This document shows, in pieces, positions 44,332 through 47,522 of a DNA stretch of 64,000 nucleotides. The DNA is taken from positions 1-64,000 of the forward strand of contig NZ_WWEQ01000008.1 in assembly GCF_009857845.1 (NCBI RefSeq). Direction: 5' to 3'. The notes beneath the pieces are model-generated. The model was not told the origin of the DNA. It was given only the letters and a program-made list of their open reading frames with translations, and ran no database searches. The DNA comes from Brevibacterium rongguiense. GTDB taxonomy: Bacteria; Actinomycetota; Actinomycetes; Actinomycetales; Brevibacteriaceae. Position numbers and translations under genes: made by a program. Position 1 is the first letter of the stretch, and each line of letters opens with the position of its first letter.

Positions 44332-46347
44332 GTGTCTGCTTCCGATGATGGCTTCGATGCCTTCCAGAAGGCCCAGAGCGCCTCGGAGCCCGAGCGCTCC
44401 TCCCGCCTGGTGAGCGCGCTTGCCGCGGCCGTGGCCCCGCAGCTGCGGCGCGGACGCCTGGCGATCCTGCCCTCCGTGGCCCCGGGGCTCGACCCCGGGT
44501 TCGCCGACCGGGGCCGCGCCGCCATCGCAGCCTCCGGCGCGCCGCTCATCGTCATCGTCGGCCCGCAGCTCGAGGTCCGCACGGGCGACAACATCCTCCA
44601 GACCTATATCGACCTCCTCCTGCGCGTGGGGCCCAAGGACGGCACCGGCATCCTCGCCTACTTCGAGGTCTCCTCCGGCGGCGGGGTGCTGCCGCACATC
44701 CTCGCCTCAGGGGCCCGGGGAACGAGCGACCGGTTGGACGCCACCCCGGAAAGCAACGACCTGCTCGAGGACCAGCTCGGCGGCGTCTTCCCCTTCGACC
44801 CGAGCCCGTATATCGCGTTCGCCGCCGCCGCCGGGCAGGCGTGGCTGCAGAACCGGCCGGCGCCCAACCCGAAGGACTTCGCCGGCTCCCATTCGAACGC
44901 ATCGATGTCGCGTTACCTCGAGCTCGCGAAGCCCGGCGGCACGAGCGCGCTTGCTGCTACCACCACCGCGGTGACGGTGGGTGCCGCCACGGTCTGGGTG
45001 CTCGAGCGGCGCCGGCGGGCCGCGACGGTGGCCACGGTCCTCCCCACCGAGGTCGTCGAGCGGGTCCGCTCCACAGCCGGAAAGGCCTACGAGTTGCCGC
45101 CGCTCAAGCCCAATCCGAAGCCCAAGCAGCTCGAGCGCCGCTCGGAGCGCTCCGAGATGCTCGGCGCCCTGGAGGACGTCCGGGCGCGCGTCGGCCTCGA
45201 GGGCCCGCGTCTGGGCGGGGCGGCCACGGACATCGCCGCGCTGTGGATCATGGACCAGCTCGCCGCCGAGCCCGTCACCCAGCCCATCACCGGCAGCGGC
45301 CGCACGACCTGGTGCTACTTCAATCCCTTCCACGGGAAGCGGACCCGGGAGATCGCCTGGCACAGCGGGCGCGGTCAGCTCTCCGTGCCCGCCTGTGAGA
45401 ACTGCCGCACCGCGGTCAAGGACGGGCACGAGCCGCGCGCGCTGCTGGTGCGGGCGGGCACGCGCGTGCGCCCCTACTACCAGCTCGACGACGGCTACGC
45501 CCGCACCGGGCTGGGAGCCTTCGCCCCCATTCACACGGATATCCCGAACCGCCCGGCGTCCGGACCCCCGCCCGATCCCCGTCGCCATCGGCGGCGCGCC
45601 GGCGGGCGCATCGCGCTGGGCGTGGGAGCGGTTCTCGTCGCGACGGTCGTGGGCGCGGGGATCGGCGCGATCGTCGCCGACCGCGTGGTCGACACGTCGA
45701 ATTCCTCGTTCGACCCGGAGCGCTACGCCGATACCGAGGACTACCCCACCGAGCGCATCGACGCGCTGGCCGGCCAGCTGAAGAAGTCGCACCTCGCCGT
45801 CGAACCGGGCGCCGAGGGGCTCTTCACGAAGGCTGAGCGCGCCCGCGCCGCGAAGGCGGCCGCCTCCGCCCACACGCCCATCTGGCTGGTGTTCGCCCCG
45901 TCCGCGGGGACGGACGAATCCGGTGGCGAGGAGGAGCTGCTCGCCAACCGCATTGCGGCACAGACCGGCAAGGGAATTGTGGTGCTCGCCTCCCCCACGC
46001 ATACGGCGTTCGGGGCCAACGGCTACGACCTCACACGCCCCGACAACGTGACGAGCGGCCTCAAGCTGGGCTGGAAGGACGGCTACAATCCGGACGGGGG
46101 CGCGGGCGCAGAGCGCCTCGTGCGCGCCATCGACGAGAGCCATCCCCAACCGGATCCGGACGTGAAGCCGAAGACGGCGCGCACACAGGGGCTGAGGACC
46201 GCCCCCGATGAGCGATCGGCCATCGTGCCGAACGCGCTGCGCGGGGCGGGTGCCGGCGCCGCCGTGGGCCTCGTCCTGGGCGTCATCGCCGAGGCGTTCC
46301 TCGCGTGGACGGCCGCGCGACTGCGAGCACGGAGGAGTCAGCGATGA
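44332..46347 (+). CDS. three-TM modular membrane protein, unknown function (gene A of a pair)
   Basis: A 671-residue protein I do not recognise. From N to C: a globular module (about 1-200), TM1 (207-225) followed by ERRRR, a charged linker, a putative metal site (Cys328-x5-His334 in CYFNPFH, then Cys355-x2-Cys358 in SVPACENC), TM2 (426-448), a second globular module (470-600), and TM3 (638-660). The second module resembles the N-terminal module of the next gene (LKKSHLAVEP against LRKDPLFIDP, then SGGEEELLANRIAAQTGKG), and the first resembles it more weakly. There is no signal peptide. By the positive-inside rule the metal-binding part is cytosolic and the modules are outside. The GTG at 44332 follows TAGACT by 7 nt. 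Confidence 0.8.
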   Translation: MSASDDGFDAFQKAQSASEPERSSRLVSALAAAVAPQLRRGRLAILPSVAPGLDPGFADRGRAAIAASGAPLIVIVGPQLEVRTGDNILQTYIDLLLRVGPKDGTGILAYFEVSSGGGVLPHILASGARGTSDRLDATPESNDLLEDQLGGVFPFDPSPYIAFAAAAGQAWLQNRPAPNPKDFAGSHSNASMSRYLELAKPGGTSALAATTTAVTVGAATVWVLERRRRAATVATVLPTEVVERVRSTAGKAYELPPLKPNPKPKQLERRSERSEMLGALEDVRARVGLEGPRLGGAATDIAALWIMDQLAAEPVTQPITGSGRTTWCYFNPFHGKRTREIAWHSGRGQLSVPACENCRTAVKDGHEPRALLVRAGTRVRPYYQLDDGYARTGLGAFAPIHTDIPNRPASGPPPDPRRHRRRAGGRIALGVGAVLVATVVGAGIGAIVADRVVDTSNSSFDPERYADTEDYPTERIDALAGQLKKSHLAVEPGAEGLFTKAERARAAKAAASAHTPIWLVFAPSAGTDESGGEEELLANRIAAQTGKGIVVLASPTHTAFGANGYDLTRPDNVTSGLKLGWKDGYNPDGGAGAERLVRAIDESHPQPDPDVKPKTARTQGLRTAPDERSAIVPNALRGAGAGAAVGLVLGVIAEAFLAWTAARLRARRSQR

Positions 46348-47522
46348 CGGACACCATCGAATACGCGAAGAATGCGGCGCAGCACCTGCGCAAGGACCCG
46401 CTCTTCATCGATCCGGCGGTGGCGGGCCGGGTGCCGCAGGCGACGAAGTCCTCGATCGAGCAGAAGCTCAAGGCGGACTTCCCCCGGCCGGTCAAGGTCC
46501 TCATCACGCCGAAGGACGTCGCCAGCGGAGACCTCGCGACGGTGGTGAACGCGGCGGAGGGCAAGCCCGACGCCGCCTACCTCATCCTCACCCCGGGCAC
46601 GGGGATGGTCTACGCGCGATCGGAGGGGCCGAATGCCTACCGCGGGGACACCAGCGCCCGCCTCTCGAGCGGGCAGGACAAGGCCGGGGCCCAACCCACC
46701 CTGACCGCGGTCCAGACCTACCTCGATGTGCTCGGCGACCCGAACTTCACCGCGCCGCGCCACGACGCGGACCAGGGCCAACGGCCCGCCGTCCAGCACC
46801 AGCCCCCGCCGGCAACGCACCGGTCGGCGGACGGAGGGCTGCTCCTGGGTGTGGCCACGCCGCTGCTCGGCATCGCCGCGGTGGCCGCCGTGCTCGTCTA
46901 CGTGTTCCGCCGGCGCGCCGACCGCCGGCGCTACGCCCTGCCCAAGCCGCTGTTCGACAGCGCGCGTCGTCTCCAGTCGCAGTCGATGCAGCGCCAGCTC
47001 AGCGAGCAGAGCCTCGACATCGCCGGCAGGCTCACCGAGCTGCGCACCGATGCGCTGCCGGCCGCGCAGGCGGACAGAGTGGAGCACGGCCTCGATGCCT
47101 ATGCGCTTGCCGGCCGCCTCATCGACGATTCCGCGGCCACCGAGGCGGACCTCGCCGGTGCGCTCGTGCTGCTCAATACCGCAGCGGCGGACCTCAACGC
47201 GGTCGACCAGGCACAGGCCAGCGGCGCGCGGGGGGCGCGCCGCGCCAAGCGCTCCGCCCGCGGGGCCGGACGGATTCCCCGGCTGTGCGCGATCAATCCC
47301 ACCCATGGCGAATCCGAGTCCACGATCGACGCGCCCACGGGCGGTGGCCGCATCCCGGCGTGCCGACAGTGCGCCGCAGACCTCAGCGCCGGGCGCGAGC
47401 CGGACTGGATGCTCGCCGGCGGCAAGCCGTACGTGGAAGGCGACAGCGTGTGGGCGAGCACGCTCTACGGCGCGGTGGGCGACGACCTCGTGGCCGAGCT
47501 GCACCGCACACACGGGGCATAG
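46344..47522 (+). CDS. single-TM modular membrane protein, unknown function (gene B of a pair)
   Basis: A 392-residue protein whose ATG overlaps the stop of the preceding gene (ATGA) with GGAGGAG upstream, so the two are translationally coupled. It has an N-terminal module (about 5-100) related to those of gene A, a Pro/Gln-rich linker, one TM (166-188) followed by FRRRADRRR, a helical stretch (205-295), a basic linker, and the same putative metal site as gene A: Cys315-x5-His321 in CAINPTH and Cys340-x2-Cys343 in RIPACRQC, then a Gly-x-Glu/Arg-Glu-Pro segment. No signal peptide is seen. The function is unknown; the shared modules suggest the two products form a complex. Confidence 0.8.
   Translation: MTDTIEYAKNAAQHLRKDPLFIDPAVAGRVPQATKSSIEQKLKADFPRPVKVLITPKDVASGDLATVVNAAEGKPDAAYLILTPGTGMVYARSEGPNAYRGDTSARLSSGQDKAGAQPTLTAVQTYLDVLGDPNFTAPRHDADQGQRPAVQHQPPPATHRSADGGLLLGVATPLLGIAAVAAVLVYVFRRRADRRRYALPKPLFDSARRLQSQSMQRQLSEQSLDIAGRLTELRTDALPAAQADRVEHGLDAYALAGRLIDDSAATEADLAGALVLLNTAAADLNAVDQAQASGARGARRAKRSARGAGRIPRLCAINPTHGESESTIDAPTGGGRIPACRQCAADLSAGREPDWMLAGGKPYVEGDSVWASTLYGAVGDDLVAELHRTHGA

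Follow-up and report, generated by a model that had tools for sequence, protein, structure and literature searches.

A translationally coupled gene pair of Brevibacterium encoding membrane proteins with predicted TPM-fold modules and putative zinc domains

The gene pair and its setting

The window analysed here, a stretch of 64,000 nucleotides from Brevibacterium rongguiense, contains two overlapping genes, named A and B in this work (Table 1), that a previous reading of the sequence alone had described as ATGA-coupled and as encoding membrane proteins it could not assign. Both descriptions are correct. The reading frames and the overlap at 46344-46347 were checked, and a gene caller based on codon usage also reports the two genes. 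Neither product matches a Pfam or NCBIfam family: scans of A and B against Pfam, NCBIfam and PADLOC gave no significant match, and profile searches of PDB sequences returned chance-level matches only. A role in anti-phage defence was dropped, as PADLOC gave no match for A or B. Literature searches found nothing on the A/B family by name, nor on PSP in Brevibacterium. The genes fabD, fabH, acp and fabF lie 5' of gene A, while an acyl-CoA thioesterase-like gene lies 3' of gene B on the opposite strand (all named from their translations).

Table 1. Coordinates of the A/B features in the window (aa, amino acids; TM, transmembrane segment) and, where an L handle is given, of related loci
Feature	Position	Strand	Remarks
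Gene A	44332..46347	+	671 aa, GTG start, TGA stop; equivalent to A1 plus A2, which most relatives carry as separate genes
A module 1 (residues 20-190)	44389..44901	+	homologue of A module 2 and of the B module; probably of TPM type and extracytoplasmic
A TM1 (206-224)	44947..45003	+	positive charges on C side
A metal domain (residues 315-402)	45274..45537	+	C328, H334, C355, C358; hhalign match to B domain and PspA-linked family
A TM2 (431-449)	45622..45678	+	positive charges on N side
A module 2 (471-606)	45742..46149	+	predicted TPM fold; VIA-align Z 9.8
A TM3 (639-657)	46246..46302	+	positive charges on C side
ggagg, likely ribosome binding site of gene B	46331..46335	+	read from sequence
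Gene B	46344..47522	+	392 aa, ATG start, TAG stop; 4-nt (ATGA) overlap with gene A
B module (residues 2-138)	46347..46757	+	predicted TPM fold, extracytoplasmic; AF2 block pLDDT 77-97
B TM (167-185)	46842..46898	+	K/R: 1 on N side, 6 on C side
B helical bundle (201-300)	46944..47243	+	cytoplasmic; from AF2 model
B metal domain (310-392)	47271..47519	+	C315, H321, C340, C343
Own-genome psp locus parts	L185 6694-7512 and 7948-10672
Fused A proteins with lost ligands	L074 6110-8233; L075 8452-10683; L067; L068; L180; L181; L182; L184

Distribution and gene architecture

B is present in 50 of the 60 Brevibacteriaceae genomes. Of the loci in which the gene 5' of B was readable, all have A or A2 there apart from one disrupted copy (L017), and in most of them the two genes share the 4-nt overlap. 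Conserved pairing across Micrococcales had been named as what would support the system; it holds within Brevibacteriaceae but was not seen in the rest of the order as sampled, where a search of 10 genomes from other families found no B relative. The named relatives found by a contig scan with B of one family member were all Brevibacterium, and a scan of genome contigs with the window B as query gave no match. An A-B pair is also carried by the Streptomyces-like genome G230 (L111).

In most Brevibacterium genomes two genes stand in place of A: A1, of about 411 aa, comprises a module, a TM and a metal domain, and A2, of about 265 aa, has a module between two TM segments. They are followed by B and located between rplL and rpoB (names from translations). 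A1 and A2 form one gene in the window, G023, G033 and others, and a tree of B proteins groups the window with other fused-A genomes (support 99/97). This correspondence to two genes accounts for the order of A, module-TM-metal domain-TM-module-TM, with three TM segments; B is ordered module-TM-helices-metal domain, with one. Disrupted loci were also seen: in G018 (L076 5244-8253) B is broken, with transposase-like genes between its pieces, and in G021 (L183) only remnants of the pair are left.

The pair is absent from some 10 of the 60 Brevibacteriaceae genomes and is thus dispensable. These absences, together with the existence of frame-broken or transposase-interrupted copies, are what would be expected of fast-diverging, decaying genes of little function. 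We give this explanation hardly any credence, because the pair is intact in most genomes, its coupled overlap is kept, and many residues are conserved at 30-40% identity.

Membrane topology

The sequence-only reading had placed the modules and the metal site on opposite sides of the membrane by the positive-inside rule, and the charges flanking the TM segments (Table 1) agree with it, giving modules out and metal domains in. Signal peptides precede the module in several relatives (judged by eye and from hydropathy), which also places the module outside. Charge pattern and signal peptides together support a predicted topology with the modules outside and the metal domains inside. A and B of the window themselves have no signal peptide, as had been noted.

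The modules and the TPM fold

Profile-profile comparison with hhalign relates the two modules of A to each other (E 5e-9) and both to the module of B (6e-9 for the first, 1e-13 for the second); the wider family described below has a module that each of the three matches as well. Judged by these comparisons, all three modules are one family.

The AlphaFold2 model of B is good (mean pLDDT 85) and that of A fair (80). When residues 2-138 of B were aligned with known structures, TPM domains came out on top: the best was 5anp (Z 12.5, 127 aligned residues, rmsd 3.1), with further matches to 3pvh (Z 11.6), 2kpt (11.5), 7tbr (10.6), 2kw7 (10.5) and 8c7i (9.9). The TPM structures matched in this range (Z 9.9-12.5) are BA41, TLP18.3, cg2496, R. 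marinus TPM, PG_0361 and Psb32. Plain Foldseek ranked the same families first, although weakly (best E 0.014). Residues 471-606 of A align with TPM structures up to Z 9.8, to 3ptj and 5anp (VIA-align). According to these models, the B module and the second module of A have a TPM fold, and what had been a loose impression turned out to be right. The first module of A is modelled as alpha/beta, and its own TPM matches are weak or mixed; it is probably TPM-type through its homology to the other two modules only. The PF04536 profile does not match A or B at E 10, and hhalign of the A/B modules against 22 actinobacterial PF04536 domains gave probabilities under 2%. As PF04536 is not reached by sequence profiles, we speak of a TPM fold and not of PF04536 membership.

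Phosphatase or ATPase/ADPase activity has been reported for TPM domains (cited in PMC11237479), and the pair could accordingly be an enzyme that works as a TPM phosphatase or ATPase on the outer side of the membrane. We consider this very unlikely: the module alignments contain no common invariant acidic set, as read from column conservation, and the PF04536 profile is not matched.

The Cys/His domain

The putative metal site of A reads C328-YFNPF-H334 ... C355-x2-C358, followed by HEP, and that of B C315-AINPT-H321 ... C340-x2-C343, followed by REP. The shared Cys-x5-His...Cys-x2-Cys pattern that had been reported is present in both, and the likeness is not due to chance, because profile comparison of the two domains gives E 5e-18; the A domain also matches that of the PspA-linked family (4e-18, hhalign). 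Scored as presence or absence over distinct domains, the ligand set Cx5H...Cx2(C/D) is found in 40 of 42 B-type and 44 of 53 A-type domains and in all 23 of the PspA-linked type, which often have Asp as fourth ligand. The Cys and His residues are thus conserved in homologues, apart from one clade in which the A site is lost: the nine A-type failures are eight signal-peptide-type fused A proteins of this clade (Table 1) and one fragment. Other residues are conserved among B relatives too, namely W355, PY362-363, W370, T373, G376 and DL381-382 in the metal domain, and DLAGALVLL before it. We consider this Cys/His domain to be probably zinc-stabilised.

The fused A proteins of that clade are without the His and the Cys pair; the surrounding metal-domain sequence is kept, and their B partners retain these ligands. 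In G059 (L065 7670-8920 and 11122-11856) one operon carries two B copies, and in one of them all three Cys ligands are gone.

A Cys/His set conserved on the cytoplasmic face, with TPM domains outside, would also suit a transmembrane metal or stress sensor, in which an inner zinc switch signals to a cytoplasmic regulator upon damage detected by the outer TPM domains. However, the loci read show no recurrent neighbour of the pair that is a regulator, sigma factor or kinase. Moreover, a structural zinc fits better than a regulatory switch, since the A ligands are lost in one clade. We therefore regard such a sensor as improbable.

The wider family and pspA

Members of the wider family are single genes encoding a signal peptide, a module, a TM, helices, a metal domain and a Gly/Phe-rich tail. 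A profile built from these single-gene relatives was searched against 396 genomes of the phylum, and PspA was searched in the same genomes. Considering strong matches (E 1e-15 or better), pspA lies within 5 kb of the family gene in at least 17 of the 31 genomes that are not Streptomyces-like, in most cases at a distance of 46-523 nt, and in 0/11 Streptomyces-like genomes among the matches listed. The identities of PspA and PspAA at the checked loci were confirmed by Pfam. As pspA is a membrane-repair gene, its vicinity to the relatives suggests a role in membrane integrity. In other actinobacteria (G402, G166, G121) the slot beside pspA is occupied by a canonical PF04536 protein.

Two further observations concern these neighbourhoods. 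In other actinobacteria, genes of large canonical TPM-domain proteins immediately precede pspA (L187 4281-7808, L188 5219-7324, L191 5274-7385). At the Streptomyces-like loci L112, L113, L114, L118, L121 and L122, the family gene is near a 534-aa citramalate/isopropylmalate synthase-like gene.

In the psp locus of the window's own genome (L185, G000:C147:1000-13502), one strand carries pspA, PspAA, an M48 peptidase and PspAB. The opposing strand encodes a 272-aa relative made of TM, helices, metal domain and Gly-rich tail, without a TPM module. No PF04536 gene was found in this genome. A and B are not beside pspA; their neighbours are fab genes in the window and ribosomal protein genes near rpoB, or others, in relatives. 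Consequently, the tie of A/B to PspA rests on the wider family.

Two further families were compared with A/B. The Rv1476 family (PF20381) matches the N-terminal module of the distant relatives L126 and L128 above the gathering score, but not A or B of the window, and its model, 156 positions long, has no room for their metal domain. DUF5129 (PF17173) resembles A/B by eye, with an exported TPM-like domain, a TM, a helical part and a Gly/Ser-rich tail, but no Cys/His domain was seen in it. It was rejected as parent family for lack of a metal domain and of a profile match to A or B. The one DUF5129 gene of the window's own genome (G000:C149:5098-6072) is separate from A/B.

Discussion

TLP18.3/Psb32 act in the assembly or stabilising of photosystem II, and the B module aligns with the mycobacterial supercomplex chains 6adq_J (Z 8.9), 8hcr_J (Z 8.7) and 8ovc_a (Z 8.4), which we take to be PRSAF1. 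Like A/B, PRSAF1 and Psb32/TLP18.3 have a TPM fold facing outward or towards the lumen, but they have no sequence match to A/B, and we know of no cytoplasmic metal domain in either. PRSAF1 is located at the bc1/aa3 interface of the III2-IV2 supercomplex (PMC7719681). The pair could thus be an assembly or stabilising factor of another membrane complex (respiratory supercomplex, secretion or envelope biosynthesis) without any PspA link; its position away from pspA is in line with this, and the duplicated modules would fit a multivalent clamp. Yet respiratory genes are absent beside the pair, and pspA is the strongest neighbour of the wider family. We judge this explanation rather unlikely.

The nearest model for A/B is the YdjH/YdjG pair of B. 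subtilis, where a TPM-type membrane protein is likewise paired with a second membrane protein, YdjG, which bears zinc ribbons, and where YdjH anchors PspA and YdjI, an SPFH protein. The wider family of A/B adjoins pspA, which adds to the likeness. In contrast, A and B both carry TPM-type and metal domains, have neither an SPFH partner nor pspA next to them and are not matched by PF04536. Besides interacting with itself, YdjH interacts with PspA and YdjI and forms a pair with YdjG; PspA and YdjI foci depend on it (PMC8581546). TPM has also been listed among the partners of PspA, and a chaperone-like role has been proposed for it (PMC11237479).

Given the data on YdjH with PspA and YdjI, and TPM as a PspA partner, we tentatively favour, at a little under even confidence, a reading of A/B as an envelope-integrity scaffold: subunits of a membrane complex with outer TPM domains and inner docking domains, aiding the recognition or stabilisation of stressed envelope. 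A and B would join in one membrane complex, probably heteromeric, whose outer face would carry two TPM-type domains from A and one from B. These are probably non-enzymatic and would bind or clamp partners in the envelope or in membrane complexes. On the inner face, one small Cys/His domain per protein, linked via a helical segment, would dock a cytoplasmic partner, which may be PspA or another effector. In this way the pair may help to recognise or stabilise stressed envelope regions, as modelled on YdjH/YdjG. Like the "sensing or assembly pair" of the sequence-only reading, contact of A and B themselves with PspA is something that we infer.

It is tempting to go further and to see in diverged outer TPM domains, permanently joined to cytoplasmic zinc docking domains, an undescribed actinobacterial system. 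Its Brevibacterium expansion, with three modules and two metal sites and independent of the pspA locus, would sense or clamp damaged envelope and recruit the ESCRT-III-like PspA on the cytoplasmic side. This more specific proposal is, in our estimate, unlikely.

In summary, our analysis points to a domain family that is not covered by Pfam or NCBIfam and that occurs across Actinomycetota, repeatedly beside pspA; inside one genus, its TPM/zinc module set has been duplicated and fused or split. To our knowledge, little has been learnt about the membrane partners of PspA in bacteria other than Proteobacteria and Bacillus. The family could provide concrete candidates for the anchoring of PspA or for the stabilising of membrane complexes in actinobacteria.
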